Shown: in pieces, positions 3,001 to 60,110 of the stretch | Numbering within the stretch: the first letter of the stretch is position 1 | Layout of the letters: the number at the start of each line of letters is the position of its first letter | From: Antedon mediterranea | Lineage: Eukaryota > Echinodermata > Crinoidea > Comatulida > Antedonidae | Length of the DNA stretch: 64,000 nt | NCBI RefSeq assembly: GCF_964355755.1 | Contig: NC_092676.1 | Coordinates: 5,934,288 to 5,998,287 of the forward strand | Direction of reading: 5' to 3' | Notes under the pieces: model-generated | What the model saw: the letters and a program-made list of their open reading frames with translations, nothing else | The model's database searches: none | Told to the model about the DNA's origin: nothing | Position numbers and translations under genes: made by a program

Positions 3001-5539
3001 TACGACTTCAGACAGACAAAACAATCGCTCGCACTGGCTACATTGCAACATACACAATCTTGAAACGACCACAACCAGCTCCATGTACGTAAACATTACT
3101 CTTTGCAATATTCTTTCTTTTGAAATCTATATATTGTACTGTTATTTAGTTATTTTCTCTTTCAGATTGTAATAAAACATACCTAGGCCCAAATGGAGTT
3201 ATTTCATCGCCGAATTTTGTTGTAGGGTTACCTCAGTATTCCAACGACTTGCTCTGTTATTACTTTATAAAAGGCAATGTTTTTGAACGAATACTGGTAC
3301 ACTTTGTTATATTTGATGTTGAACTACAAACGCCTTGCCAACCAGATTACGTACAGGTAAATATAGATTTTTTATCCGCCTGAACTGATATTAGGCTTAG
3401 CGCCTGAGCAGATTATAATACTTTGCTTCTTTTTAGATCAAAGATGTGGCAACGAGAAAAACCAATATCATATGTGGTGAACACCCTAATTACATATGGG
3501 AATCGGAAAGCAACGAAGTCAACATAACGTTTATTACAGACGGCAGCCGTACGTTCCGTGGATTTAACGCAACGTATAAAATGGAGCACAAGCAAGGCAT
3601 ATCATGTAAGCTTTTAACGTCTTCGTCACTTCGTTGCCAAAATGGTGTTTTGAAAACACCGCCGTACTTTAATCGTGGCTATAGTAATACTTTTATGTTG
3701 CATAACGGTTATTTTCTATATTTCAGATTGTGATGATGAAACTCTTACGGACACCACCGGAACATTCCACTCACCAGACTTTCCCGCCAAATACCCAAAT
3801 GACTTGGACTGTGTTTACACGATAATCGCCGATCCGGGCCATTTCATTGAAGTGATATTCGAATTCTTTCAACTGGAAACCAGTCCACACTGTACAAATG
3901 ACTACGTTTCGCTCTCCAGTGTTGGCGAAGGAACCAGTCAGCGTTACTGCGACAAACATAACCTTCTGAAGTGGAACTCTACGACCAGCAGTGCAACTGT
4001 TACGCTGCATTCTGATCACGTGATAACGGACAACGGTTTCAAAGCTACATACAAGATCCATCAAGTGTTCCAAGCTGGTAATTTTACTCTTTCTGCTTTT
4101 TTAAACACACTATACATTATTCTTAATGAATGAATAAACTTTATGTTCATATTTTTGTTTTACAGAAACTTGTTCACCTGTACATCTAACAACCTCTAGC
4201 GGCATGATCCAAAGTCCAAATTACCCATCAAACTATGAAAATAATTTGGAATGTACATACAGAATAACAGTGAATCCATCCAGAGTTATACGAATTGAAT
4301 TTATCGAATTTGAGATTGAAGAGCCACAATCCGGATTTTGTGCAGATTACCTGCAGGTAAATACATCACACACTTAGTCTCTAAATAATGAACATAGGCC
4401 TGACTCGACTCTTCAACTCGGCAAAGTCGGCCGTAAATGTTTGACCATCTTTAGGCCCCATCGTCCATGGTCCCGACTATCTTTACCTTACCAATACTAA
4501 TTGAGTAACCTTCAACTAATTTTTAGATACCCTACGCAACTCAAAATCTGAAGCTATGCGGAAATTTGGAAAAGAATGTCTACATCACGGACAGCAATGA
4601 TGTTCTGCTTACACTAATAACGGACGGTAGTAACACACTCAAAGGATTCAAGGCAATGTACACATCTGTGGAAAACACCCCAGTAGTCACAGGTAAACAA
4701 TTCCTTCTTTCATCATATTTTCAGTCCGATTCGGACCATACTAGTCATCTCGTCTTCATACTGATTCCGTCCACTTCGAACCACATACCATGCCGCATCG
4801 GCTGAGATCAACCATATGCCTACATTTCACTTACACTTTCCTAAACAAACTTAAGCCTACATTGTAATACGGGTATTTTTATTTCTAGTTGCCCCAACAC
4901 CGTTACCGTTCTGTAGTGTGGAGACTAGCCGATTGACGGGCAGCTACGACATCATACACAGCTTAAACTTCCCAGCCTACTACCCAAATAATGTAAAATG
5001 CAGAACTATCATCGAGACCAAGAAAAACACCCGTATTATCATTACAATTCGGTTTATGGATATCGAGAACTACAAACTTTGTGATTGGGATTACTTACAG
5101 GTAAGCCTGCGTACTAATTGTTCTAGATTCAGGGCCTACTGTCTACCGTTACCGTGCAGGATTTACGCGTTGTTTCAGTTTTGCCCCAACAGAAAGATGG
5201 TAATAATATAGAGGTCACCGCAGAGGTTACTAATCTACCATCGTTGTTCTGCTAACAATTACTTGTCTGTATATTTATTTGATCTATTTTTTTCCCCAGA
5301 TATTTGATGACGTTTCCGGTCGTAGCACGGAGAAGCTTTGTGGTTCACTCGATGCTCCTTTCGTCTGGGAATCCGACGGCAATCTGGTGACGATGATATT
5401 CAAGAGTGATGACATTCTGGCCAGAACTGGCTATTACGGCACCTACCAGTCGGTAGAAATCGTGGCACCTACTCCGTTTAAAAAGCCAGGTTCAAAACCA
5501 AAGCCTGACAAAAACTCGTATATAGGTTTCGGCAGATAA
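1..5539 (+). CDS. CUB-repeat secreted protein A (3' part; 5' end outside window)
   Basis: Eighteen exons: 1-88, 175-340, 440-645, 747-909, 1068-1403, 1491-1666, 1831-1996, 2101-2252, 2342-2504, 2593-2795, 2901-3084, 3166-3356, 3437-3605, 3727-4077, 4166-4356, 4527-4692, 4889-5100 and 5300-5539 (TAA). Each CUB domain (SPNYP-YPNN-like start, C-NDYL, then CG..F.WtSDsNEV..F...GF.A.Y) is normally two exons with an internal phase-0 intron and phase-1 outer borders. Two CUBs (exons 1068-1403 and 3727-4077) have lost the internal intron. Ten CUBs are visible, the first cut by the window edge. There is no transmembrane segment, and the protein ends in a short Lys/Pro-rich tail (...NSYIGFGR). CUB domains bind proteins or glycans outside the cell, often via calcium; the ligand is unknown. 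The intron after 2795 has a GC donor. The gene is nearly identical to the 3' part of the gene at 13931-23787, so it is probably its tandem paralog. An uncollapsed haplotype is the alternative. Confidence 0.88.
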
Positions 5540-7267: not shown

Positions 7268-9664
7268 ACTAAAATAAAACAAAGGTGTTGTTAATCAGCA
7301 TATAGTGATAACAAGTATTTTTTGACCTGTTTTTTTATACATTTATTTTGTTTCTTTAAAATAACCGGTTTATTACCACGATTACAAGCGAATTCTTTCC
7401 ACAATTTTGGTCCATATATGTGTATAAACTGTTGACTGCAAGTTAGTCTAGTGAAGGGAATTTCGAATTCAGTTTCTGTTCTGAGGTTATGAGTAGGCCT
7501 AATACTGTCACAGTAATTAAAACTATTTAAAATGTGATGTGGTAATTCATTGAATTTTACGTTTGCCATAAATCCTATGACGTTTACTTTGTAAATATCA
7601 TAAACGTTTAATATTTTTAGTTTCTTAAACAGTGGCTGTGAGGCTTGTCTGGGTTTAGAGACGGTGATGCATTTTACAACTCTCTTTTGGAGTTTTAGTA
7701 TTGCTTCTAACGTGCTCTTGTATGTATTTCCCCATATTAAGTTACCATACTGAAGATGAGGTAATACTAAGGTGTTATAAAGACTAATACGGACTTTATG
7801 AGGAAAGAATTCTCTTACTTTTAAAAGTATACCAGTTTCCCTAGACATTTTTTCCCAATAAACTGTATGTAATGTTTCCAGTTAAGATTTTCGTTTAAAA
7901 TTACATTTAGAAATGTCACATTTTCTTTTCTATGTTATAATACATTATTCATTTTTATTTCAAACTGGTTTTTGTCAAAGTACTTTTGGTTAGTTCTAAA
8001 AACAACGTAATTAGTTTTGCTGACATTCAGTAACAGCTTATTTGCTTTAAGCCATACGTTTATTTTTTCTAGTTCAATATTCATAGTATGGTTTAACATT
8101 GTAGGGTCATCTCCCCTTGTTATACAAGTTGTGCCGTCGGCAAAACTAATTATATCTATTTTACTACTTGCTCGACTTATATCATTGATGTAAATCAAAA
8201 ACAAAAGTGGTCCTAAAACAGCCCTGTGGCACCCCTATATTGGTGTCTTTTCAACATGATGATCTACCATTGGCATAAACATATTGTTTGCGGCCACTTA
8301 AATAGTTTCTAACCCACATTAATACGATGCCTCTTATACCATAATGCGCCAATTTGCTCAACAGAATACTGTGATCGATAATGTCAAACGCTTTTGACAA
8401 ATCCATAAAGGTAGTAAGTGCATATTCCTTTTTTTCAAATGCATTTAATATTCTATGGACCAAGTCGATCATAGCAGGGGAAGTTGAGTGTTTATTTCTA
8501 AATCCATATTGATTGTTGCTTAACACTTTAAATTTTGTAAGATAATTGTATAATTGATTATGGATAATCTTTTCAAAGACTTTCGAAAAAATGAGCAACA
8601 GCGATATGGGACGATAGTTTGAGGCCTAAAATGGCGGTCCTCTTTTTTATGTATAGGAACTACTTTGGAAATTTTTAACTTCCCTGGTATCGGTCCAGTT
8701 TGAAGTGAAAAATTAAAAGTATATGTCAGCTGCTTTAAAATATTGTATTTTACTTCCTTTACAACTTTTGCTGAAATGTCATCAAATCTGGGGGCTTTGT
8801 TTGAATCGAGAGATAACTTTTAGTACATCCTTCTCATCAACATAGTAAAAAAACATTGAGTTGCGTTGTTTGTTTGTGAGGTATTCAGAATATTTTGTCG
8901 TAGTAGACTCAATATTGTCTCGAACCTTACAACCTACATTAATAAAATAATCATTAATGTGATTTACAACATTTTCGCAGCCATGTATAGTTTCATTGTT
9001 ATGTGTAAAAGAAGATGGAACTTTAGTTTTTCCTTTATTCGGATCAATTACATCATTTATAACATTCCATGTTTTTTTAATATTACCATTTGTTCGGTTG
9101 AAAAGATTTTCATAATACATCTTTTTGGCGATTTTGTACGTGCGTGCAAAAGCTGTTTTAAATTCTTTATACGCATTTTGACAGTAGGGTGTTTTATGAA
9201 CCTTTTAAACAGTACATGCTTTATTTACTAGAACTTAGTAACCCAGAACTCATCCGGGGCTGCTTGAATTTGTCGTACTGTTTTGATGACTTTACCGTTT
9301 TTTAAAGGTGTTTGTTATATAGAAACTTAAAATTATCCAGAAAATCATTATAAGCGATTTCTGGATCAATCGCTTCATATACTCCAAGCCACTCTGCACT
9401 TAACAAATCATTATTTAGTTTCATAATATTTCTATTGTTAACTATATACGTGTCACATGAGACTGAGGTGCCTTTATTCATGTGCAGAGTGAGTTATTTG
9501 ATATACTGGTAAATGGTCGGAAATGTCCGAGATTAGTATACCAGATAGAACTTTTTCGGAAATTGTATTTGAAAATATGTTGTCAATTAGTGTTACTGAC
9601 TGATCTTGTATTCTAGTTGGTCTAGATATAGATGGATAAAACGAGTGAGACACCATTATTTCAA
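7268..9664 (-). mobile_element. CR1-like LINE, 5'-truncated and inactivated
   Basis: On the minus strand, in order: end of the endonuclease domain (about 9656-9474, SDISDHLPVY), linker (9120-8782), reverse transcriptase (8598-8251 with FMDLSKAFD; 8204-7935 with YINDIS and FADGTTC), then the C-terminal region (7848-7291, LYNTLVLPHLQYGNLIWGNT). The catalytic FADD box reads FADG, and frameshifts separate the pieces, so it cannot be active. It is inserted in what was the intron 3 region of a duplicated arylsulfatase gene. It splits a palindromic MITE whose right end remains at about 9690-9712. Confidence 0.8.
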
Positions 9665-11409: not shown

Positions 11410-12441
11410 TCAAAGTAATGGGTCCAGATAAAGACCATCCACAGGAAAAGAATGGGGTGTAAGACCATCCACAGACAAAGAAGGGGGTATAAGACTATCC
11501 ACAGACAAAGAAAGGGTATAAGACCATCTACAGACAAAGAAAGGGGTATAAGACCATCTACAGACAAAGAAAAGGGGGTGTAAGACCATCCACAGACAAA
11601 GAAGGGGGGTGTAAGACCATCCACAGGCAAAGAAGGGGATGTAAGACCATCCACAGACAAAGAAGGAGGTATAAGACCATCTACAGACAAAGAAAGGGGT
11701 GTAAGGCCATCCACAGAAAAACAAGTGGGTGTAGGACCATCCATAGACAAAGAAGAGGGTGTAAGACCATGCACAGACAAAGAAGGGTTTAGGATCATCC
11801 ACAGACAACGAAGGGGGTGTAGGACCGTCCACACACAAAGAAGGGGGTGTAAGACCATCCACTGACAAAGAAAGGGGTATAGTCCCACTTACAGACAAAA
11901 AAGGGGTATAAGACCTTCCACAGACAAAGAAGGGGGTGTAGGACCATCCACGGACAAAGAAGGGGTGTAGGACCATCCACAGACAAAGAAGGGGATGTAA
12001 GACCATCCACATACAAAGAAGGGGGTATAAGACCATCCACAGACAAAGAAGGGGTATAAGACCATCCCCAGACAGAGAAGGGGGTGTAAGACCATCCACA
12101 GACAAAGAAGGGGTGTAAGACCATCCACTAACAAAGAAAGGGGTGTAAGACAATCCACACACAAAAACAGGGGTGTAATACCATCAACAGACAAAGAAAG
12201 GGGTGTACTACCATCAACAGACAAAGAAGGGGGTATAAGACCATCCACAGGCACAGAAGGGGTATAATACCGTCCACAAACAAAGAAAGGGGTGTAAGAC
12301 CATCCACAGACAAAGAAGGGATGTAGGACCATCCACAGAAAAAGCAGGATATGTAAGACCATCCACTGACATAGAAAGGGGTATAGGACCACTTACAGAC
12401 AAAGAAGAAGGGTGTAAGACCATCCACAGGAAAAGAAGGGG
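11410..12441. repeat. Minisatellite, 29-30 bp unit, about 35 copies
   Basis: Tandem variants of a unit containing AAGACCATCCACAGACAAAG followed by AAGGGG(G)TGT. Units vary between 28 and 31 bp. All minus-strand frames are long and open because the unit lacks stop codons there. The frame rotates between units, there is no start context or splice structure, and this is best read as non-coding. Confidence 0.92.
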
Positions 12442-12845
12442 GTTGTCATATTATTTACGTTGTGATTCTCTGTGTTTAGAGAAGGATGCTTTAGACCAGG
12501 TCCGCCTTATATTATTAGCCAATCAAAATCGTATAATTTTTGGAGGGAAATTGTTATCCTCCTCTGAAGCCTAAAATTTGCATGTCCAGTATAAAAGTGG
12601 AATGTAATAGATATTAAGAAGAAGAGAGAATAAGATCAGAGTAGATAAACGGAAAGATGATAAAAAAAATATTAAGGCTTGACTGGTAGTGGTAGAAAGA
12701 TGTATTAATCGAATTACAAGGAATAAAAGTTCTAGTTGAGTTAAATTATACTTTTTGTATGAGTTATCATTCAGTGACAGCTGTGTACGTCGCGTGGAGT
12801 TATATACGCCTGAGAAAGCTCGGAACCAACTAAAATAAATTCACT
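12442..12845. other. Unique spacer splitting the minisatellite
   Basis: About 400 bp of unrelated AT-rich sequence lies between two blocks of the same minisatellite. The unit before and after it shares the rare variant 'GTGTAATACCATCAACAGAC'. No gene is visible. Confidence 0.6.
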
Positions 12846-13010
12846 ACAGGGGTGTAATACCATCAACAGACACAGAAGGGGTATAAGACCATCCACAGAC
12901 AAAGAAGGGGGTATAAGACCATCCACAGACAAAGAAAGGGATATAAGACCATCCACAGACAAAGAATGGGGTATAAGACCATCTACAGACAAAGAAGGAG
13001 AAGTAGGACC
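12846..13010. repeat. Second block of the 29-30 bp minisatellite
   Basis: About five and a half further units (ACCATCCACAGACAAAGAAG type), in the same orientation as 11410-12441. Confidence 0.9.
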
Positions 13011-19900: not shown

Positions 19901-22900
19901 GGGCCAAAGTCTTGGTTACCACTGAACGCAACACATGAATGTAACCTTGTACGACGCGATGGATCATGTAGTTGCGTAACCCCACTAGTACTGCAATAAT
20001 ACTCTACAACTTGTATAATTTAATATCTCTCTTTCTACAGCTAACTGACGTAGCGACCGAAAGGACCAACACTTACTGTACCATTTCTCACTCCTTTTCA
20101 TGGACAGCAGATACAAATGAAATAAAAATCCGTGTATTCGCCAAAAAAGACAAATTACCTCGCATGATTGCCAAATGGAAATCTGTCGCAAGAATCGGAG
20201 AACCAGGTAGGCATAACTGGTTCTAGAAAACATTTAATGGAACTCAAAAGGGTGCAAAATCGGTAATCTTTCCATTTTCTTTTCTAATTTTTATTTTATT
20301 TATTTTTTAGTTATTTCTCTTGAGGATTCTGGACACATTAAGCTCACATCGACATTCCCAACCTACCAATATCTTATTCATGTTGAACCAAATTACCGAT
20401 TGATTATCAACTATTTGCACGAACACGATGCCATACAGCATTGTAACATAGACAGCATCAAGGTAATATAGTTATTTCAACACTTTACTACGTCGCATGA
20501 AACTGATCTCTTCTGTGATACTGTGTGTGTGCTTTCAAATGAGATCGCTCTTTTTTTTATCCACAGATCACCGATTCAACCACACTCCGTTTCTTCCAAG
20601 ACTGCACGTTCTTTGATGGCATCATGTCATGGGTTTCAGACAGTAACGAGGTCATCATTGACGCCAAACAAATTGCTGGACATGACACGGTCTTATACTA
20701 CACTCGAGTTCTGAAAGCACCCCCTTCTGGTAAGCATTTTTTTTTACTGAATATATGCTTAGGAACTCTTGCTACTACCGTAACAATTTGATTTCTTACA
20801 TTTTTTTTGTTTACCCAGAATGCAACAAGGTCATCACATCCGATACGAACTTGGAAACAAATTCTGGATTGGAAACTGCGAACTATCCAGGAATGTATCC
20901 CAATGAACTTGTATGCGATATGATTATGCAGACGACGTCCGATAACCGTATTCAGGTTGTTTTCAAGGAATTCTGGTTGGAGATACCAAACCATATGGGA
21001 TGTCACAACGACTATTTAAATGCAAGTACAAATTGTTTTAATCGGTACAGGTTCAGTAATTTCCTAAATTTATGGTCGAAATGATATTATTTCTTAAATT
21101 TCTTATAATTTCTCATTCCATTTTAGGTTTCGGACACGTCTGTTGGATTTCATTACGATCATTCTGAACGAATCTGTGGCCGCCTTGAACCTATTTCTTG
21201 GACGTCGGAAGGCAACTCCTTGCTCCTACGACTTCAGACAGACAAAACAATCGCTCGCACTGGCTACATTGCAACATACACAATCTTGAAACGACCACAA
21301 CCAGCTCCATGTACGTAAACATTACTCTTTGCAATATTCTTTCTTTTGAAATCTATATATTGTACTGTTATTTAGTTATTTTCTCTTTCAGATTGTAATA
21401 AAACATACCTAGGCCCAAATGGAGTTATTTCATCGCCGAATTTTGCTGTAGGGTTACCTCAGTATTCCAACGACTTGCTCTGTTATTACTTTATAAAAGG
21501 CAATGTTTTGGAACGAATACTGGTACACTTTGTTATATTTGATGTTGAACTACAAACGCCTTGCCAACCAGATTACGTACAGGTAAATATCGATTTTTTA
21601 TCCGCCTGAACTGATATTAGGCCTAGCGCCCGAGCAGATTATAATACTTTGCTTCTTTTTAGATCGAAGATGTGGCAACGAGAAAAACCAATATCATATG
21701 TGGTGAACACCCTAATTACATATGGGAATCGGAAAGCAACGAAGTCAACATAACGTTTATTACAGACGGCAGCCGTACGTTCCGTGGATTTAACGCAACG
21801 TATAAAATGGAGCACAAGCATGGCATATCATGTAAGCTTTTAACGTCTTCGTCACTTCGTTGCCAAAATGGTGTTTGGAAAACGCCGCCGTACTTTAATC
21901 GTGGCTATAGTAATACTTTTATGTTGCATAACGGTGATTTTCTATATTTCAGATTGTGATGATGAAACTCTTACGGACACCACCGGAACATTCCACTCAC
22001 CAGACTTTCCCGCCAAATACCCAAATGACTTGGACTGTGTTTACACGATAATCGCCGATCCGGGCCATTTCATTGAAGTGATATTCGAATTCTTTCAACT
22101 GGAAACCAGTCCACACTGTACAAATGACTACGTTTCGCTCTCCAATGTTGGCGAAGGAACCAGTCAGCGTTACTGCGACAAACATAACCTTCTGAAGTGG
22201 AACTCTACGACCAACAGTGCAACTGTTACGCTGCATTCTGATCACGTGATAACGGACAACGGTTTTAAAGCTACATACAAGATCCATCAAGTTTTCCAAC
22301 CTGGTAATTTCACTCCTTTTACTTCTGATTTTTTTAACCACAGTATACATTATTCTTATGAATGAATAAGCTTTTATGTTATATATTTATGTTTTACAGA
22401 AACCTGTTCACCTATACATCTAACAACTTCTAGCGGCATGTTCCAAAGTCCAAATTACCCATCAAACTATGAAAATAATTTGGAATGTACATACAGAATA
22501 ACAGTGAATCCATCCAGAGTTATACGAATTGAATTTATCGAATTTGAGATTGAAGAGCCACAATCCGGATTTTGTGCAGATTACCTGCAGGTAAATACAT
22601 CACACACTTAGTCTATAAAATAATGAACATAGGCCTGACTCGACTCTTCAACTCGGCAAAGTCGGCCGTAAATGGTTGACCATCTTTAGGCCCCATCGTC
22701 CATGGTCCCGATTATCTGTACCTTACCAATAACCTTCAACTAATTTTTAGATACCCTACGCAACTCAAAATCTGAAGCTATGCGGAAATTTGGAAAAGAA
22801 TGTCTACATCACGGACAGCAATGATGTTCTGCTTACACTAATAACGGACGGTAGTAACACACTCAAAGGATTCAAGGCAATGTACACATCTGTGACAATG

Positions 22901-41227: not shown

Positions 41228-42689
41228 CCGGGCGCGATTTTTTTTTTCGTACATAAGTTGGGAACCCCCTCATGAAACGTCACAAAATAAACATGAATAA
41301 TTCATCAGTTAAATTTGTTGTTCCGTGTGCACACAAGCGTATAGCAACAAGAAGTGATTGCACAACTGCGATACGATACTTTCTACAGTAGGCCTAGGAT
41401 TCTAAGTCAATTCACGTGATTGCCTTCGCGCACTCTTCTTCACACAAAATGTGTCGAGTCGAGGCTAATCGACAGCTAGGCAAGACATTAAACTAAGTAG
41501 TAATTCATTGGACATAGCCCAAAGAAAGCTTAGACCCACAAGAATAAAGAATGTGTATAATTTGTGTACTGTATTTTTTTTAATTCTGCTATTTTATTAT
41601 CAAACAATGCATGTACTCAAAGGAACTTTAAAAATGCGCGTATATGAACACATGAAATGGGAAGATTAGACCCACGAGAATAAAAAATGTATTTTTGTGT
41701 AATGTTTATTGTTTAATTTTGCTGACTTATTACTCGGATTGTGTCATACCTATAACACACACACACAGCTCTACTAGAATAGACATATGTTTAGAGAGAC
41801 TAATAATTAGGCCTTAGGTCTAATAGTATTAATAGAAACTATAATTTTAACACGTAATTCTTTAGTAATAAATTATATTAAAAACACTATCATAAACTAA
41901 AGGCTGATTATTTCGACAATCCACACAAAACGCCGCTATTCTTCTATGAAATCGCACACCGCAACAACAGCGCGGAGATATAGACAAGTTCTATTTCCTC
42001 TGAAATATGGTGTAAGAAGCATTTTTGGGTAGAAGCTGGGATCCACTTGATTTAGGATATTTCGACCTCGCTGATTACGAATATGGCGGATCCCAAGCAA
42101 AATTCGGCCATCTAAGCCCTTAATTTGCATAATTAAAAATGGCGGCCATTTTTTATAATTACCTTATATCTCGAGAACCACTAGTCACAGGTAATTAATT
42201 TTGGTGTCAAAATGTTTTAGATATATGTTTTTATATTCACTTTAATGACACATTTTCTCAAAAAATGGATGCAAGTCTTATTTCTGACATTTTGACCTTT
42301 GAACTTGATTTATCATATCTCAGTAACCAATAATCGGAGAGACACGAAATAGGGCTCAAATTGTTCAGAAACTATACATTCATATTTATTATAATAAAAT
42401 GTTTTTACAAAAAATGGCCGATTCTACAACTATTGACCTTTGAACTATTAGTCAAATATAATAATATAACTCTGAAAATGTTGGTCTTATGACATTTTTT
42501 TTTCTTTTTAAATTGTTTAAAACATGTGTGTTTCTATCCAGTCTAATGGCACATTTTGTAGAAGAATGGCCGATAGTATGGTTATTGACCTTTGAACTAC
42601 AGCATAGGCCTACTGTATAATAAATATAATATAATTGCATAACTATGAAATTATTTATACACAATAATAATTAGTAAAATTATAAAATT

Positions 42690-43195
42690 CACTGCCATCA
42701 AATATGATGTATTATGATTTATATAGATTTTTAAAAAGATGAACACGCAAGTTACATTTGGAAATTACCTGCCATCATTATGATGGAGTATGATTATAGA
42801 TTTTTAAAGATGTGAACATGTCAGCAACATTTGGAAATTACCTGCCATCAATATGATGGATTATGATTATAGATTTAAAAAAGAATTTGAACACGTCAGC
42901 TACATTTGGAAATTTGGAAATTACCTGCTATCAATATGATGGATTATGATTGTATAGGTTTGAAAGAAAATGTGAACACGTAAGCTACATTTGAAAATTA
43001 CCTGCCATCATATTGATGGCTTATGATTATAGATTTTTAAAGATGTGAACACGTAAGCTACATTTGAAAATTACCTGCCATCAATATGATGGATTATGAT
43101 TATAGATTTAAAAAAGAATTTGAACACGTCAGCTACATTTGGAAATTTGGAAATTACCTGCCATCAATATGATGGATTATGATTGTATAGGTTTG
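42690..43195. repeat. Subterminal tandem repeats, left arm
   Basis: About six to seven units of roughly 70-80 bp. Each contains ACCTGCCATCAATATGATGG followed by ATTATGATTATAGATTT and a 'GTGAACACGTCAGCTACATTTGG' block. Each unit carries the small palindrome CCATCAATATGATGG. Confidence 0.8.
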
Positions 43196-43282
43196 AAAGA
43201 AAATTTGAACGCGTAGCTACATTTTGGAATGAACATGTTAAGGGCATCAGTTTTGATCATTCATGCAAAGGTTTCCGTCATC

Positions 43283-43283
43283 T

Positions 43284-43329
<46 letters not shown>

Positions 43330-44120
43330 GTAACATTTATTTCTCTTCTTGTCATTCATAGAAAATAAAAATTAACAGTAAATATGATTAAAATAAAAGG
43401 GGCAGCATTCCTAAAAAGCGAAGCTTGTATAAGGCAGCCCATAGAAACTGAAAAAAAAAAAAAACAGGACAACACGGGAACCGGAAACAGGACAAAAACA
43501 GTAATGAAGACTTTTAGTTTCAGGGTACCGAAAAGACTAAATATCAAAACTACAATGAGTGAAAGGATAATTAAACATAACTAGATAAGAGGTGCCGTTT
43601 CAATTCAAAAGAAAAACTCTTCTTAGACAAAGCACTTTTTATATTAACTGGTACGTTATCCCAGTGTTTAGGACCAGTGAACTTAATGCTATGTTTAAAA
43701 GAAGTAGTTTTTAAAAAAGGAATACGTATTTGATTATTTGCGCTCCGAGTACTGTGGTTATGAAAATTAAGATTGAAACTAAATAAATCATCAAAGTGTG
43801 ATGGCAGGATCGAGTTTAGCCATGAATAGAGGAAAACACTGTTGAAGATGGTTAATAGCCTGAATTTTAAGAAGACCAAATGAAGAAAATAAAGGATTGG
43901 AATGGGATAAAGGAGGAGCATTTGCTATGTATCTTACGGTTTTCTTTTGGATCAATAACAGTTTGTTTAAGTAGGACGGGTATGTATTACCCCAAATAAT
44001 ATTACAGTAAGTGAGGTAAGGGAGGATTAGTGAACAGTAAAGAATCTGGAGTATGTTTTGAGGGATGAAAGACGATAATCTATATATGAACCAGAACTTT
44101 TAGATATTTTGTTTTCGACT
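43283..44120 (-). mobile_element. 5'-truncated CR1-like LINE inside the foldback left arm
   Basis: The minus strand encodes CSLILPYLTYCNIIWGNTYP (about 44040-43950) and HNHSTRSANNQIRIPF ... GPKHWDNVPVNIKSAL (43790-43600), the ORF2 C-terminus. The 3' end is a (TTGA)n tail, seen as about ten TCAA units at 43288-43327. The right arm shows the uninterrupted site: AACGCT joined directly to AAAGATGACGG at about 45486-45496. Confidence 0.8.
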
Positions 44121-44515
44121 TTAGCGTTGTTACAGCAGCATAAAGCTGTACATGGTAGTTTTGACTTCTTGCACCTACATCTATATGGTTATGCATCGTG
44201 TCTTGCATCCACAATAAATCATCTCTAACGAAGCAGTAGGAATAGCTTCATTTTTCAGAAGCACTGGTTGAAGTTTACCATTAGATAGCTCCCAACCAAA
44301 ATCTGTTGGTAATAGCAAATGCTGGATTGGCGATACAGCTTTTTTCCATACGAGTGATTGGAAGTGTGCTCTTTTTATATGCTGGTGCACTGCATCGCTT
44401 GTTGGAGGTATGCCTCTGGTTTTTTTTTTTAACATGGCATGCCTAACTTAAAACTGTCGATAAAGGACACCACCAGACAAAGATGAACCAAAACACAGCC
44501 AGCCAAATTGCTGGT

Positions 44516-45483
44516 CGAACTTTTTGGCATTACAAGAAAATAAAGCAGATCTGGCACGATTTCTATCAGAGGAGTTGATTCGTCAAGCTCCTATAGACAA
44601 AGAAATTGTCACAGCTGGTGGATTTATGGAAGAATCAGTTGTTAAATCATCAAAAGTCTACACGAATACGTTGTCTCTGGTACCAGATCATGGAGAAGCG
44701 GACACGCGACTTGTCATGCTGCCAATGTCCGATACGACACAGTTGTAGTTGCTTAGGGATACAGACGTACTGTGATTCTAGTGTCTCACTACCAAAGCAT
44801 GGTATCCAAATGGATGATGACAGGGACATCCAAAAAAAGAAAGTATCTATAAAAGACATTTTTCAAGCCTTGCCGGATGGTTCTGCAAAAGCACTGATTC
44901 CATTCCACACTATTAGTGGATGCGATACTACCTCATATCCAGGGAAGAGTTAAATTACATTAATACATACATACAGTAATTTAACTCTTCCCTGCTCATA
45001 TCTAAGTGGTCACTCAAAGGCATCGGCATGGGAAGTATTAAAAACAAATTATGAACTAATTAAAGACATGGGAGAAAACCTATCAGTGACCAAGTTATTA
45101 TGAAATCGGAAAGATTCATTTGCTACGTTTACGGTGTTGGGTCAAGTTAAAAGTACCAATGAAGTTAGGCATGCCATGTTTAAAAAAAACCAAAACCAGA
45201 GGCATTACCTCCAACAAGCGATGCAGTGCACCAACATATAAAAAGAGTACACTTCCAAGCACTCGTATGGAAAAAAGCTGTATCGCCAATCCAGCATTTG
45301 CCATCACCAACAGATTTTGGTTGGGACCTATCTAATGGTAAACTTCAACCAGTGCTTCTGAAAATTGAAGCTATTACTCCTTCGTTAGAGATGATTTATA
45401 GTGGACGCAAGACACGATGCATAACCAATAGATGTAGGTGCGAGAAGTCAAAACTACCATGTACAGCTTTATGCCACTGTTAA
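44516..45483 (+). pseudogene. Element-encoded protein with ADTR, GCDTTS and C-terminal CXC motif, frameshifted
   Basis: Readable pieces in order: NKADLARFLSEELIRQAPID, HGEADTRLVML, KALIPFHTISGCDTTSY, GHSKASAW, STNEVRHAMF, LPPTSDAVHQHIKRVHFQ, SPTDFGWDLSNGKLQPVLL and RCRCEKSKLPCTALCHC. The last is a tesmin/TSO1-like CXC cluster. Similar uncharacterised proteins are known to me as multicopy genes in cnidarians and echinoderms, and the EADTR/DTDV region resembles PIN/FEN-like nuclease folds (inference). At least three frameshifts and a 55-bp insertion break it here, and the N-terminus is missing. Its C-terminal part is also present inverted at 44125-44435, as part of the left arm. Confidence 0.7.
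44940..44994. mobile_element. 55-bp hAT-like micro-MITE with 8-bp target duplication
   Basis: Perfect 19-bp terminal inverted repeats CAGGGAAGAGTTAAATTAC (44940-44958) and its reverse complement (44976-44994) enclose a 17-bp loop. They are flanked by CTCATATC at 44932-44939 and again at 44995-45002. The CAGGG start and 8-bp duplication fit hAT. Without the insert the host frame reads straight through the expected GCDTTSY-LSGHSKASAW region. Confidence 0.88.
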
Positions 45484-45589
45484 CAACGCTAAAGATGACG
45501 GAAACCTTTGCATGAATGATCAAAACTGATGCCCTTAACATGTTCATTCCAAATGTAGCTTACGTGTTCACATTTTCTTTCAAACCTAT

Positions 45590-46260
45590 ACAATCATAAT
45601 CCATCATATTGATGGCAGGTAATTTCCAAATTTCCAAATGTAGCTGACGTGTTCAAATTCTTTTTTAAATCTATAATCATAATCCATCATATTGATGGCA
45701 GGTAATTTTCAAATGTAGCTTACGTGTTCACATTTTCTTTTAAATCTATACAATTATAATCAATCATATTGATGGCAGGTAATTTTCAAATTTCCAAATG
45801 TAGCTGACGGGTTACAATTCTTTTTTAAATCTATAATCATAATCCATCATATTGATGGCAGATAATTTTCAAATGTAGCTTACGTGTTCACATTTTCTTT
45901 TAAATCTATACAATTATAATCCATCATATTGATGGCAGGTAATTTTCAAATTTCCAAATGTAGCTGACGTGTTACAATTCTTTTTTAAATCTATAATCAT
46001 AATCCATCATATCGATGGCAGGTAATTTTCAAATGTAGCTTACGTGTTCAAATTCTTTTTTAAATCTATAATCATAATCCATCATATTGATGGCTGGTAA
46101 TTTCCAAATGTAGCTGACATGTTCACATTTAAAAAAATCTATAATCATACTCGATCATATTGATGGCAGGTAATTTCAAATTTCAAATTTCAACAAATGT
46201 AACTTGCGTGTTCAATTTTTTTTTTTAATCTATATAAATCATAATACATCATATTTGATG
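45590..46260. repeat. Subterminal tandem repeats, right arm
   Basis: About eight units, inverted relative to 42690-43195, with CCATCATATTGATGGCAGG and 'CAAATGTAGCTTACGTGTTCA'. Confidence 0.8.
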
Positions 46261-47156
46261 GCAGTGAATTTTATAATTTTACTAATTATTATTGTGTATA
46301 AATAATTTCATAGTTATGCAATTATATTATATTTAGTATACAGTAGGCCTATGCTGTAGTTTAAAGGTCAATAACCATACTATCGGCCATTCTTCTACAA
46401 AATGTGCCATTAGACTGGATAGAAACACACATGTTTTAAACAATTTCAAAAGAAAAAAAATGTCATAAGACCAACATTTTCAGAGTTATATTATTATAAT
46501 TGACTAATAGTTCAAAGGTCAATAGTTGTAGAATCGGCCATTTTTTGTAAAAACATTTCATTATAATAAATATGAATGTATAGTTTCTGAACAATTTGAG
46601 CCCTATTTCGTGTCTCTCCGATTATTGGTTACTGAGATACGATAAATCAAGGTCAAAGGTCAAAATGTCAGAAATAAGACTTGCATCCATTTTTTGAGAA
46701 AATGTTTCATTAAAGTGAATATAAAAACATATATTTTAAACATTTTGACACCAAAATTAATTATCTGTGACTAGTGGTTCTCGAGATATAGGGTAATTAT
46801 AAAAAATGGCCGCCATTTTTAATTATGCAAATTAAGGGCTTAGATGGCCGAATTTCGCTTGGGATCCGCCATATTCGTAATCAGCGAGGTCGAAATATCC
46901 TAAATCAAGTGGATCCCAGCTTCTACCCAAAAATGCTTCTTGATTCGTTTTCTAGGCCGTTTTTTGAGAAATGGAACCTGTCTAATAGGCCTAGAATCGT
47001 ACCGCACTTGTGTAATCACTTCTTGTTGCTGCTATACGCTTGGGTGCGCGCACACGGAACAAGAACATTTAACTGATGAATTATTCATGTTGATTTTGTG
47101 ACGTTTCATGAGGGGGGTCCCCAACTTATGTACGAAAAAAAAAATCGCTTCCCGGG

Positions 47157-48945: not shown

Positions 48946-51274
48946 TCAGTTGCCAGATCTGTCATTGCCTTGTCGGACAACGGTTACCGTTGCAGGATGT
49001 CCTTTTTTTCCATTGAGTTCAGGCGTTACGGTAATTTCAACCGTCTCCGCAAGAGACTCGGACATTTCACACATTCCTATATGCGGATCATTTATTTGGA
49101 TAACACCGGGAAAAGGTAAACCATCATCGGAACATGAAATTCTAAATAAATCGGCAGTACCTGACGTAAGGTTCCAAGTGGCAACGCCGAAAGAAAAGCC
49201 GTCATCTAACATACCTTGGAATTGAGAAATGTCTGTAATCTCAAAAAGAACAACCATGGCTGGAACTGTGGAAATTATAAATAAAACAATATCATGTTTA
49301 TATCCTAGAAAAGCATAGATATAGAAAGTAAGATATGAATTAAAATATACTTAAAGGTGTATTGTCCCCCAAAAACATGAAAAATGAAGATTAATTAAAT
49401 CAGACTTTGAATAGGTTATTTTGTAGTTTTAATAAAGTTAATCACTTCCGTAGAAAAAAAAATAAAAAAAATTATATTTTCACTTATAAAATAACAAAAT
49501 AAACGGTTAAATTCAACCAAAAATCCATTGGCTGCCAGCCAATTTGACTATTTTTTGCTTTTAATTACATTTTCAGGTAAATACATTTTTTTCGATCTAA
49601 TTTTTGGTCAAAATGGATAAATATTATGTGACATTAAAATTTTATATTCAACAAAAAAATAATTTTTTAAGGGGGACAATACATCTTTAATAATGATCAC
49701 CTATCAGCCTATCACCCGATTCTGCAACTGTCACTAGATAGATGTTAACTGACTATTGAAAGTCATCTAGATACGAGTCTAGGTGTATAAAGTAAGTCTA
49801 CTTTTAATACATGTTATGAAAAATTTTAGATTTTACTAACGTTTGGTAATCTTTTAAAGTAAAAAAAAAACACACGTTTTACTTACTTGTCGAAATAGAT
49901 ATGACAGCAGATCCCAGTGGTGTATTATTGTAATTCAGCTCTACGCTCAAATCAACATTGGTCCCAGCCTCCAAACCAAAGCAACTTACAATCTTTGTCA
50001 TGTTAGACTGCACTGTCCCAGACGTTGACGGAGTTCCTTCAGAACATGTCACGGTATATGAAACAATCTGGGTTGCGTCTGACGACATTTTGGCGACTAC
50101 AATCGTAGTATTTGTCGCATTATTTTCAATCAATGTTATGTTCACAAGATTGTCTGCAATTAAAAAATAAGTATTTGAAGAAAAGCCGGTAGACATACAT
50201 ACCAATACTCAATTACACAAACAACGTCCGGCGTAATCCAACAAAAATTAACATTATAAAAAAGGTGCATAATATAACTTACATGGCGAAGTAGTTAAGC
50301 CTGATGAAGTCGTTTGGCCTGATGAATTTGTTAAACCAGATGAAGTCGTTTCATTCAATGAATTGTCAGTGGTCAATTCGTCTGCTGATGAGGGGTAGTC
50401 GGTTCCGGCATCTCTCCTATTCCCAACAACAGTTACCACAACTGTGACAGGATGTCCTTCTTTTCCATTCAGTTCAGGCGTTACGGTAATTTCAACTTTC
50501 TCCGATAGAGACTCGGACATTTCGCACATTCCTATATGCGGATCATTTATTTGGATAACACCGGGAAAAGGTAAACCATCATCGGAACATGAAATCCTGA
50601 ATAAATCGGCAGTACCTGACGTAAGGTTCCAAGTGGCAACGCCGAAAGAAAAGCCGTCATCTAACATACCTTGAAATTGAGACATGTCTGTAATCTCAAA
50701 AAGAAAAACCATGGCTGGAACTGTGGAAATTATAAATAAAACAATATCATGTTTATATTCTAGAAAAGCATAGATATAGAAAGTAAGATATGAATTAAAA
50801 TATACTTAATAATGATCACCTATCAGCCTATCACCCGATTCTGCAACTGTTACTAGATAGATGTTAACTGACTATTGAAAGTCATCTAGATACGAGTCTA
50901 GGTGTATAAAGTAAGTCTACTTTTAATACATGTTATGAAAGATTTTAGATTTTACTAACGTTTGCTAATCTGTTAAAAAGTAAAAAAAAAACACACGTTT
51001 TACTTACTTGTCGAAATAGATATGACAGCAGATCCCAGTGGTGTATTATTGTAATTCAGCTCTACGCTCAAATCAACATTGGTCCCAGCCTCCAAACCAA
51101 AGCAACTTACAATCTTTGTCATGTTAGACTGCACTGTCCCAGACGTTGACGGAGTTCCTTCAGAACATGTCACGGTATATGAAACAATCTGGGTTGCGTC
51201 TGACGACATTTTGGCGACTACAATCGTAGTATTTGTCGCATTATTTTCAATCAATGTTATGTTCACAAGATTGT
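48946..51274 (-). repeat. Intragenic tandem duplication of exons 8-9 as exons 10-11
   Basis: Exons 8 (51274-51008) and 10 (50153-49887) encode identical peptides, 1121 bp apart. Exons 9 (50720-50283) and 11 (49265-48946) are nearly identical over their shared part, 1455 bp apart. The difference is the MITE at 49351-49690. Introns match as well. Confidence 0.9.
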
Positions 51275-54200
51275 CTGCAATTAAAAAATAAGTATTTGAA
51301 GAAAAGCCGGTAGACATACATACCAATACTCAATTACACAAACAACGTCCGGCGTAATCAAACAAAAATTAACATTATAAAAAAGGTGCATAATATAACT
51401 TACATGGCGAAGTTGTTAAGCCTGATGAAGTTGTATGGCCTGATGAATTTGTTAAACCAGATGAAGTCGTTTCATTCAATGAATTGTCAGTGGTCAATTC
51501 GTTTGCTGAGGAGGGGTAGTCGGATCCGGCATCTCTCCTATTTCCAACAACAGGTACCACAATTGTGGCAGGATGTCCTTCTTTTCCATTCAGTTCAGGC
51601 GTTACGGTAATTTCAACCGTCTCCGCTAGAGACTGGGACATTTCACACATTCCTATGTGCGGATCATTAATTTGGATAACACCGGGAAAAGGTGTACCAT
51701 CAGAACATGAAATCTTGAACAAATCGGCAGTACCTGACTGGTTCCAAGTCGCAACGCCGAAAGAAAAGCCGTTATCTAACATACTTTGAAATTGAGAGAG
51801 GTCTGTCATCTCAAAAAGCACGACCATTTCTGGAGCTGGAAAAATTAAAACCCGAAATTGATCCAAAAAATGTATACAGTATTACTTTGTTATTGACATA
51901 ATGACATTGTGTCCTTCTCAACGAAACGTATTCGTACGTGGATCCCGAACAGTTTTGCATTGATCCCAATCAATGTTAATCATACTATAAGAAACTTTGT
52001 GCTAGAATCCTTTCAACTCGTTTCCCGAAACATACCTAAACATATTCTGTATTTTGATTCCTGTACATTATTCTAAATCTAAACATCGTTTTTTTTTTTA
52101 TTTCGTGCCCTCAATTCGTATTACTTATAACATGAGTAGGCCTACATGTCTCTGTGCATTTAAAGTATCAGCATTTGGTATTTTATTAAGTTATATGAAA
52201 GTTAACTTTTACTCACAAGTTGAAATAGATATTGAAGAAAACCCAACTGATAGATTACCGGTACCATGTACGAATCTTACACTTAAGTCAACGGTGTTTC
52301 CGGCCTCCAAACCATCACAGAATACATCTTTCGTCATGTTAGCCTCCATCATACCAGACGGAGACGGATTGCCTTCAGAACATTCCACGTTATAAGGAAC
52401 ACTCTGAGTTGTGTCTGACGTCAATTTGGCGACTACAGTCGACGTGTTTGTTCCAGTAGTATCTTCAACCAATGTTACGTTAACAAGCTTACCTATAATA
52501 AAAATGTATATTTAAAAGGGCCTGTCCAATTTAAAACAGACCCACTTAGTAGGCTAGTGGTGAACATTAGTATAAGGGTGTAGGCCTACTTGATTTGTCG
52601 TGGTATTCATGGGTCACCGTAGAATTGTATATCATTACAAAGCTTTCGCATCGGGATAAAAGGATAAGTTATTTAATAACAAAATATTAATCTGCGCATG
52701 CGTATAAGCCCAGTATAATCCGTTCCGTTCTCATTGAGACAATTGGTCGATTTAACGTTCGGTACGATAGAGGAGCAATCTTTATGACGTCACTTTGAAA
52801 ATTTCCAACAGTAAAAACTGGTCGATCAGTACGAAGCGAATGCACGCGGAACAGTACCGTATGTAATTCCAGACAGCAAAGCAACTTTCGACACTCTAAA
52901 AAACGCTGGCAACGTGGATTAAATTCAATGATTGGCTATTAGTTACGATTCATCCCCGACAAATCAAAGTTGAGAACCCTGGTTAATCTATGCCAATTTG
53001 ATTGCGCGACGCATTGAGAAGCCTTTCTGAAATGTAGCGATATTGAGGAAAATTCTGCATCGACAGGGATGTACATATGATTGCAGAACAATCGCGAGAT
53101 TATGGCTGTCGCCGCACTCGCTTGCCTTACAGCCGTCGCCGTAAATTGATGTGATGTCACAGGTGCATCGCAAAAAAAAATCAACATTTATATTTTTTTA
53201 CAATTTATTTACAAAGTGTGTTTACTAGAAAAGTTCGCGATTTGCCAAACCTTGCCAGAAAACTCATGAAGTAAATTTTGCGATGCACCTGTGACGTCAC
53301 AGCAATTTATGGCGACGGCTGTACGGCGAGCGCGTGCGGCGATATCCTTAATCTCGCGATGGTTCTGAAATCATATGTACATCCCTAATACGTTGTTAAA
53401 ATATGGTCCTCGGTCAAGTTGTCCATTAAGGGAAGTCGGGATTTAATACCGTCTGACGCCTGGACCCAGGACAGCTATGTGATGCTTAGACTTACATTTC
53501 CGTTTGTGTTTACAGTAGGTGTTAATGTTTAGACTTACTTGTTGACAAAACCATCAAGCTGGGTATTGCTTGTTTGGAGTAGTGGACAGCAACTACATTC
53601 ACTACCACTTGAACACCTGGGCCTACATCCGAACACTTTACACTGCCAGACCCGTCAAGCGTGTTCACTACAATTGAGGCTGGTTCTCCAACTGAACAGC
53701 TGACGTTGAACGCCGAAACTGAACCAGACATGATCTTCCATTTCACAAATACATATAAAAACGAAGAATTTTGACTTGTGAATTCAACCTGGTCCGGATC
53801 TGCAATTGGTAACAAAAGCCAAGTTTAGGTCTAAACGCTATTTATGTTTACACGTCTCATTGGAGTTAAATTTTGGTTTATCTGAGTGTTGCGTTGAGAC
53901 GCAGAACTTAAACTTTATCTCCTTTAAAACATGCTTGGCTGTTACAATCTTAGTTATATCGGATGTACCTTTGAAACCTATACCAAAGTTGAAAGATTTC
54001 TCTTCTATTTACTGTGGTTAACTCTCCTGTGCAGCGCGATGGATAGCAAGGGCAATGATATACTTAAGGGAGCATGCCAACATTATTATACTGCAGTTAC
54101 TGCAGTACCTAAATTTGTTACTTTGATTTTAGTTTGTTTCAATTGTACAAGTTTATGAGTAACTTTAGCTTGTTAAATAATTGCATAAATAGATTGAAGA

Positions 54201-58296: not shown

Positions 58297-58985
58297 TTAA
58301 AGATGTATTGTCCCTTGAAACACACAAAAAATGAAGGTCAAAATATACTAAATTTTAATTGGCCATATCAAAGTAATATTAAAGTTATTCACTTTAAGTC
58401 GAAAATTCGAGACAAAAACAACAATTTTACGTAATTAATAGCTAAATTAATTTGAAATTACATTTCGTCTGGAAATGAAAAGTAAACAAAGATTTTAAAC
58501 CATGAGTATACATTATGCATGATGCTAATTAGGATTGTTTACAACTTGTCACTGTTGAGAGGGTGCACTGTTTTCACACAGATCGCGAGGAAGTGTTATG
58601 ATTATGCATACAGAGTAGCCAAATATGCGCATTGCACTATGAAATATGTTTTGATCGAAAGCTTTGACTAGAAGTCAAAGTTATTTTTTTAACCAAAAAA
58701 CGTCTGTATTTCAGTTAAATAAATTTTTTTTCGACTATTTTTTGGTGAAAGTTTTTTTTTTTTATCTTATGTGGGTTCATCCCACTTTTATTTCCATACA
58801 ACTGTTCTCTTTACATATATTTTTCACTATACACTATACATATCATTATATTTACAATTACAAAAAAAAGTTGGAAAAAGATGAAAGTTAATAACTATTA
58901 TAATACTTCAAAATGACCCACTTTTTTTCGAAATCTTTTTATTTTTATTTTTTTGGAATTTGACAAAGGGACAATACATCTTTAA
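58297..58985. mobile_element. TTAA-flanked MITE, longest copy
   Basis: Ends are TTAAAGATGTATTGTCCC and GGGACAATACATCTTTAA. The interior matches 54239-54780 inverted, plus an extra T-rich insertion at about 58755-58885. The minisatellite at 58987 begins immediately at its right end. Confidence 0.78.
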
Positions 58986-58986
58986 C

Positions 58987-60110
58987 GAATCGATGTGGAC
59001 AAACCAGATCCATTGCGGATGCCGAGGTACATTTACGTTGTTAACCAGTCAATGTGAATAAACCAGATCCACTGCGGATGCAGAGGTACATTTACGTTGT
59101 TATCCAGTCGATGTGGATAAACCAGATCCACTGCGGATGCCGAGGTACATTTACGTTGTTATCCAGTCGATGTGGATAAACCAGATCCACTGCGGATGCC
59201 GAGGTACATTTACGTTGTTATCCAGTCGATGTAGATAACCAGATCCACTGCGGATGCCGAGGTATATTTACGTTGTTATCCAGTCGATGTGGATAAACCA
59301 GATCCACTGCGGATGCCGAGGTACATTTACGTTGTTATCCAGTCAATGTGAATAAACCAGATCCACTGCGGGTGCCGAGGTATATTTACGTTGTTAACCT
59401 GTCGATAGGGATAAATCAGATCCACTGCAGACGCCGAGGTACATTTACGTTGTTAAACCGTCGATGCGGATTTAAACCAGATTCACTGCGGATGCCGAGG
59501 TACATTTACGTTGTTAACCGTTCCATAGGGATAAACCAGATCCACAGCGGATGCCGATGTACATTTACGTTGTTAACCAGTCGATGTGGATAAACCAGAT
59601 CCACTGCGGATGCCGAGGTACATTTACGTTGTTAAACAGTCGATGTGGATTTAAACCAGATTCACTGCAGACGCCGAGGTACATTTACGTTGTTAAACAG
59701 TCGATGTGGATTTATACCAGATCCACTGCGGATGCCGAGGTACATTTACGTTGTTAAACAGTCGATGTGGATTTAAACCAGATCCACGCGGATTCCGAGG
59801 TACATTTACGTTGTTAACCAGTCGATGTGGATTTAAACCAGATTCACTGCGGATGCCGAGGTACATTTACGTTGTTAACCGTTCCATAGGGATAAACCAG
59901 ATCCACAGCGGATGCCGATGTACATTTACGTTGTTAACCAGTCGATGTGGATAAACCAGATCCACTGCGGGTGCCGAGGTATATTTACGTTGTTAACCAT
60001 AAATTGGGTAAACAAGATTCACTGCGGATGCCGAGGTACATTTACGTTATCAACCAGTCAATGCGGTTACCGGTAAATCAAATCCGCTGCGGATGCTGTG
60101 GTGCATTTAC
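58987..60110. repeat. Minisatellite, 59-62 bp unit, about 19 copies
   Basis: The unit contains CAGTCGATGTGGATAAACC, AGATCCACTGCGGATGCCGAGG and TACATTTACGTTGTTA. Some units carry TTTAAACC. Open plus-strand frames arise from the repeat and shift with unit length. Confidence 0.93.

Follow-up and report, generated by a model that had tools for sequence, protein, structure and literature searches.

Our analysis of a 64,000-nucleotide stretch of the Antedon mediterranea genome (contig NC_092676.1, positions 5,934,288 to 5,998,287 of the forward strand; hereafter the window) suggests with considerable confidence that a foldback element at 41981-46984 is a non-autonomous derivative of a 7.16-kb Academ-like transposon, one that arose a single time and then spread through mobilisation in trans by the enzyme of its parent. 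This confidence belongs to the reading as a whole, and mainly to the anatomy and the single-founder origin, whereas the step by which the founder arose is on its own only somewhat favoured. The interval 41228-47156 consists of three nested insertions, namely an older element that we call X, the foldback inside X, and a fragment of a long interspersed nuclear element (LINE) inside the left arm of the foldback. The long inverted arms are 91-100% complementary, carry subterminal tandem repeats and hold at their inner ends the CXC-coding 3' part of a gene (inverted matches in the window: I1, 508 nt at 96%; I2, 242 nt at 98%; I7, 176 nt at 95%; I18, 63 nt at 100%; I22/I23, 53 nt at 94%), much as an earlier, sequence-only reading of this DNA had described. 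That reading also held that the coding 3' end exists twice, head to head. The doubling is far beyond chance, as 70 places in the genome share both this arrangement and its junction, while a control pattern recurs at none.

When the 3' coding end and the central part of the gene were used as queries, two loci with long open frames came up, C8:1303743 (an open reading frame, ORF, of 1,547 aa) and C8:16441255 (a 1,213-aa frame). The first lies in a 7,160-bp DNA transposon at C8:1302562-1309722, here called E, whose intact 1,547-aa ORF occupies E1384-6024; its near-twin at C8:16436260-16443370 is 98.6% identical and has 1,213 aa as its longest frame. E is the intact gene between similar arms that the sequence-only reading had proposed to look for: one gene with a single 3' end lies between ordinary terminal inverted repeats (TIRs) of ~0.6 kb (E44-569 with E6604-7127, 93%, the homology running slightly further inward), and subterminal repeats are found on the 3' side of the gene only. 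The two parents are flanked by 3-bp target site duplications (TSDs; TCT/TCT for A1 and TAC/TAC for A2). The full-length 5' region of E occurs at two places in the genome, plus a fragment on C4, and the genome counts of element termini are 95 for the 5' versus 106 for the 3' end.

Placed on E, the window foldback runs inverted from E7160 to E5657, passes the founder junction (J1), and then runs forward from E4953 to the TIR, ending in the 5' terminus of E. The last ~1.5 kb of the parent (3' coding end, subterminal repeats and TIR) is in this way doubled head to head around a single-copy loop of ~0.7 kb (712 nt in the window copy), the coding sequence lacks its first ~70%, and the inverted repeat, ~0.6 kb in the parent, has become ~1.6-1.8 kb. 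The suggestion that capture of coding sequence had enlarged the inverted repeats was essentially right, since the arms reach into the coding 3' end on the parental map, and in the other copies too the coding end is found inside the repeats rather than always outside them. The accompanying suggestion of a rearranged autonomous element holds for the ancestry, but the window copy is itself non-autonomous: it is left with pieces from the final third of the gene alone, their frames shifted (coding parts from E4953 onward), is unable to encode a transposase, and would depend on the parent. The features of the interval are listed below, where 3T and 5T denote the parental 3' and 5' termini.

41228-41980, no strand: left part of the older host element X, outside the foldback (match to uninterrupted X)
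41978-41980, no strand: left TSD, ATA (flanks; single ATA in the X empty site)
41981-46984, no strand: complete foldback, 5,004 bp long in the window copy, 5'-TAGACAAG...CCTGTCTA-3' (termini and flanks; J1 family)
41981-44449, minus strand: left arm with 3T, TIR, subterminal repeats, LINE insertion and antisense 3' coding end of the gene, parent E7160 to E5657 (mapping on E)
42685-43229, no strand: subterminal tandem repeats of the left arm (repeat analysis of the window)
43286-44118, minus strand: LINE 3' fragment of 833 bp with a (TCAA)n tail, inserted in the left arm (same insertion in the C4 and C7 copies)
44132-44447, minus strand: C-terminal CXC-coding end, antisense copy (I7, I22 and I23; genome match C7:5978453-5978716, minus strand, 2 TAG)
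44438-44459, plus strand: founder junction J1 (CATGCCTAACTT|AAAACTGTCG), E5657 antisense to E4953 sense (70 genomic copies)
44450-45161, plus strand: single-copy loop with parent coding sequence (E4953 onward) that covers some of the nuclease domain in a broken frame (mapping on E)
44940-44994, no strand: hAT-like mini-element of 55 bp, CAGGGAAGAG...CTCTTCCCTG, with the 8-bp duplication CTCATATC (read in six foldback copies; absent from the parent)
45162-46984, plus strand: right arm with sense 3' coding end of the gene, subterminal repeats and TIR, 5T at its end (mapping on E; inner boundary from sequence)
45184-45483, plus strand: C-terminal CXC-coding end, sense copy, a 99-codon open stretch (ORF; Pfam TCR, weak at E=0.12; genome matches)
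45547-46181, no strand: subterminal tandem repeats of the right arm, with a 51-nt core x8 (repeat analysis of the window)
46985-46987, no strand: right TSD, ATA (flanks; X empty site)
46988-47156, no strand: right part of the older host element X, outside the foldback (match to uninterrupted X)

The ends of the foldback were fixed through X. Uninterrupted X, a TIR element of ~0.9 kb, is found at C1:32993094-32994007 and elsewhere, and matches both X parts of the window. Its empty site, GCGCGGAG-ATA-GGCCTAG (also given as GCGCGGAGATAGGCCTAG), carries ATA only once, versus ATA/ATA in the window, which establishes both the foldback ends and the 3-bp target duplication. X is the older element, into which the foldback inserted. 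The sequence-only reading had treated 41228-47156 as one element with arms of about 2 kb; the arms are real, but the true ends lie at 41981 and 46984, and arms extending to 41228 and 47156 are ruled out because the outer DNA, ~0.75 kb on the outer side, is X. The left arm exceeds the right solely because the LINE fragment was inserted there, and measures ~1.64 kb once these 833 bp are removed (right arm, ~1.82 kb). A LINE-like C-terminal ORF of 196 aa, similar to this fragment, lies elsewhere in the window at 7291-7881 on the minus strand. A Pfam search of window fragments gave no match above cut-off.

The mapped copies go back to a single founder event, followed by amplification through transposition. 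The J1 22-mer occurs on contigs C1-C11, with 67 of its 70 occurrences exact, and the E5657/E4953 junction is common to all mapped foldbacks with an intact centre; two fetched copies (C7:8881283 and C6:16850318) have lost the centre, J1 included. The mapped foldbacks also have in common a gap of ~55 bp at E5497/5490, read as the hAT-like mini-element with its 8-bp duplication in six copies, and it is the shared junction together with this shared gap site that shows there was one founder. At 55 bp the mini-element is strikingly short for a mobile element.

The foldback is mobile as a unit, its dispersed copies carrying TSDs of their own (perfect 3-bp duplications in 15 of the 18 fetched copies with both ends). 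In 55 of the 70 J1 copies the antisense arm ends in 3T and the sense arm in 5T, with lengths of 3.66-5.67 kb and one group of exactly 4,179 bp. Copies at different sites are up to 99.6-99.8% identical, and the window copy, C4:9297527 and C7:26297198 hold the LINE at the identical position, from which we conclude that the element transposed after it had formed and that later transposition carried the LINE along. Rearranged copies are also seen. In one, C11:6509724-6514437, the termini have changed places with respect to the interior inside an ATA/ATA TSD, probably by inversion through the arms; as the one copy against 55 of the majority polarity, it suggests an occasional event. At C4:11191000-11200500 two foldbacks are adjacent, one of which (C4:11191423-11195298) runs 3T to 3T, lacks a matching TSD and has a flank in common with the other; this pair points to recombination between copies. 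Five near-equal foldback copies lie within 0.62 Mb at C9:17137681-17761562, probably through local segmental duplication. In all, the foldback outnumbers its parent, with at least 70 copies versus two full-length parents.

The parent itself is best described as Academ-like and probably AcademX, a label that we chose because its TSDs and nuclease motifs fit while its transposase domain stays below threshold. The E protein and five relatives from the same genome have the motifs IIDG..., (F/V)xDxY, EEADT, DTD and GxD in order, and the acidic residues D100, D143, E240/E241, D264/D266 and D323 are invariant over the six relatives and follow one another as they do in FEN/XPG nucleases, an assignment made by motif. 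The best PDB profile match of this nuclease is human Exonuclease 1, collinear at two motifs and weak (E=0.036). Pfam searches of the parent and its relatives gave sub-threshold matches only, and the one sign of an Academ-type DDE transposase domain was a match of the central region of the parent to DUF6589 at E=0.009-0.02, below cut-off. AcademX elements have TSDs of 3 or 4 bp and encode a nuclease (PMC10045372), and here we find 3-bp TSDs and an XPG/FEN-like nuclease by motif. With its large nuclease-bearing protein and a length that falls among those of Academ elements, which average 5.6 kb in bivalves (PMC10294476), E resembles Academ and AcademX elements (PMC10045372, PMC10294476), a membership that we hold as tentative. 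The P superfamily, that of Galileo, was considered and rejected, as the TSDs are 3 bp long and no P-element/THAP Pfam match was found in the 1,480 of 1,547 aa scanned.

As to how the founder arose, an abortive gap repair in which synthesis switched to an inverted template is in our view the most likely course, with somewhat the better part of the probability. After excision or breakage, repair synthesis would enter E from its 3' end and halt at E5657, switch to the opposite strand at E4953 and copy outward through the repeats and the TIR, and the gap would close when that TIR annealed to its counterpart made by synthesis from the 5' flank. The outcome would be loss of the middle of the gene and growth of the arms from ~0.6 to ~1.6 kb. 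Transposase would then bind the TIRs and the subterminal repeats, now at both ends, excise the foldback and insert it with 3-bp duplications, the coding sequence of the arms travelling as a passenger. Gap repair with TIR annealing would yield the majority polarity (55 copies versus one) without an extra step. Several points weigh on the other side. J1 as read shows no microhomology, which does not favour templated switching, and plain end joining would serve equally; template switching often leaves a small amount of microhomology, with a median of 2 bp (PMC8277862). The 5' and 3' TIRs of the parent are too similar to place the switch back to the 5' end. Mobilisation in trans by the E protein is presumed, and its transposase core is weakly matched. 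Hairpin synthesis at a broken end would produce the exact geometry of J1, an inverted copy with a loop of ~0.7 kb between, if the 3' end at E4953 folded over, used E5657 of the same strand as its priming site and from there copied the 3' part of that strand, with closure on the 5' terminus and then inversion of the interior by arm recombination; flips of the interior do seem possible, to judge from C11:6509724-6514437 and its ATA/ATA TSD. However, the antisense arm should then bear the 5' terminus, which is the rare form, so that this course needs an extra early flip, and J1 lacks the microhomology expected of priming, which makes it in our judgement unlikely. A little less probable again is a start from two head-to-head parents (or a dimer), in which a deletion joined E5657 to E4953 to leave two 3' ends, one terminus being later swapped for a 5' end. 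The blunt J1 suits deletion by end joining, and the 3T-to-3T copy at C4:11191423-11195298 exists, with terminal exchange evident there from its mismatched flanks; yet that copy, with its unmatched TSD and a flank common to its neighbour, seems secondary, and an exchange of termini would be required in the founder itself.

Long palindromes are a known assembly hazard, and the sequence-only reading had itself named an assembly artefact as a danger to its account; an artefact or a local one-off rearrangement has in our estimate a negligible chance, since copies with the same junction are dispersed over C1-C11, most of those examined have matching 3-bp TSDs of their own, and the window insertion has its empty site, which together rule out an artefact. 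Retention of the coding 3' end as a small CXC-domain protein, for instance a KP-like repressor, is very improbable, even though most copies keep ~100 codons of the sense coding end open, and the sense arm is better conserved between copies than the antisense arm (98.4% versus 96.9% identity in the coding end). This difference extends to the non-coding TIR (98.0% versus 96.5%), several copies have frameshifts in their coding remnants, and the synonymous fraction of variants is close to neutral expectation in both arms (0.23 versus 0.22 for sense and 0.20 versus 0.21 for antisense, in 32-33 copies); selection for such a protein was tested, and this neutral pattern of variants led us to reject it. 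The coding remnants look like passengers in neutral drift. The higher conservation of the sense arm, non-coding TIR included, comes without a signal of protein selection. Homogenisation of the arms within copies was also looked for, and an arm's own mate was its best partner in just 5 of 32 copies for the coding end and 4 of 21 for the TIR, counts that rule out strong concerted evolution between mates.

Elsewhere in the window, a 30-bp minisatellite array at 11431-12443 and 12849-12998 gives rise to long but spurious minus-strand open frames, and a 59-bp minisatellite of ~18 copies at 58982-60063 has a higher-order period of 361 bp. Near-identical CUB-like coding stretches (3654-4133 and 21844-22365) and a second repeated coding family, also near-identical (48946-49350, 50254-50805 and 51375-51881), suggest tandemly duplicated host genes.

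With long repeat-bearing arms around a short loop, mobility as a unit and no complete transposase, the foldback belongs to the extended-TIR kind. This structural kind is already known from Galileo, and is found here in another superfamily, with a traceable founder, a high copy number and a surviving parent. Galileo is likewise foldback-like, with TIRs of 1.6-4.7 kb that contain tandem repeats and other transposable elements, and the final piece of its transposase ORF has been recruited into the TIR and reversed at the other end (69 bp in a near-complete copy and over 500 bp in copy 147, in Drosophila willistoni), structures that were ascribed to gap repair, template switching and recombination (PMC4168063). 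However, Galileo belongs to the P superfamily with another transposase, and its structures vary by copy, whereas in Antedon a single fixed junction has multiplied to 70 copies or more and an intact parent survives. Internal-deletion derivatives of the Ac/Ds and P type arise by abortive gap repair. Similar to the foldback they combine parental termini with an internal deletion, are non-autonomous and presumably move in trans, but in our case the deletion carries an inverted 3' end that lengthens the inverted repeats about threefold. Gap repair of the P element is cited in PMC8277862. By structure the foldback can also be likened to the Drosophila element FB (Foldback, FB4), a TIR element with long, internally repetitive and rearrangement-prone arms (PMC8277862). 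It differs from FB in that its arms stem from the 3' end of a known parent, coding sequence included. To our knowledge no foldback derivative of an Academ element has been published.

The recruitment of an ORF end into TIRs was termed unique to Galileo in 2014 (PMC4168063), and our observations add a probable Academ element from a different lineage. The record of the birth of a foldback is unusually full here, with parent, junction, founder polarity, TSDs, empty site and later cargo all legible. As its subterminal repeats now stand at both ends, the element also offers a testable case for why some defective transposons come to outnumber their parents. We can tentatively propose that the two-ended array of 3' subterminal repeats made the derivative a better substrate than the parent, so that one accident of gap repair took over the family, a possibility that we rate well below an even chance and that the ratio of 70 to 2, a count of foldbacks and full-length parents, does not by itself prove. 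If true, the foldback would be a self-made parasite of a DNA transposon.

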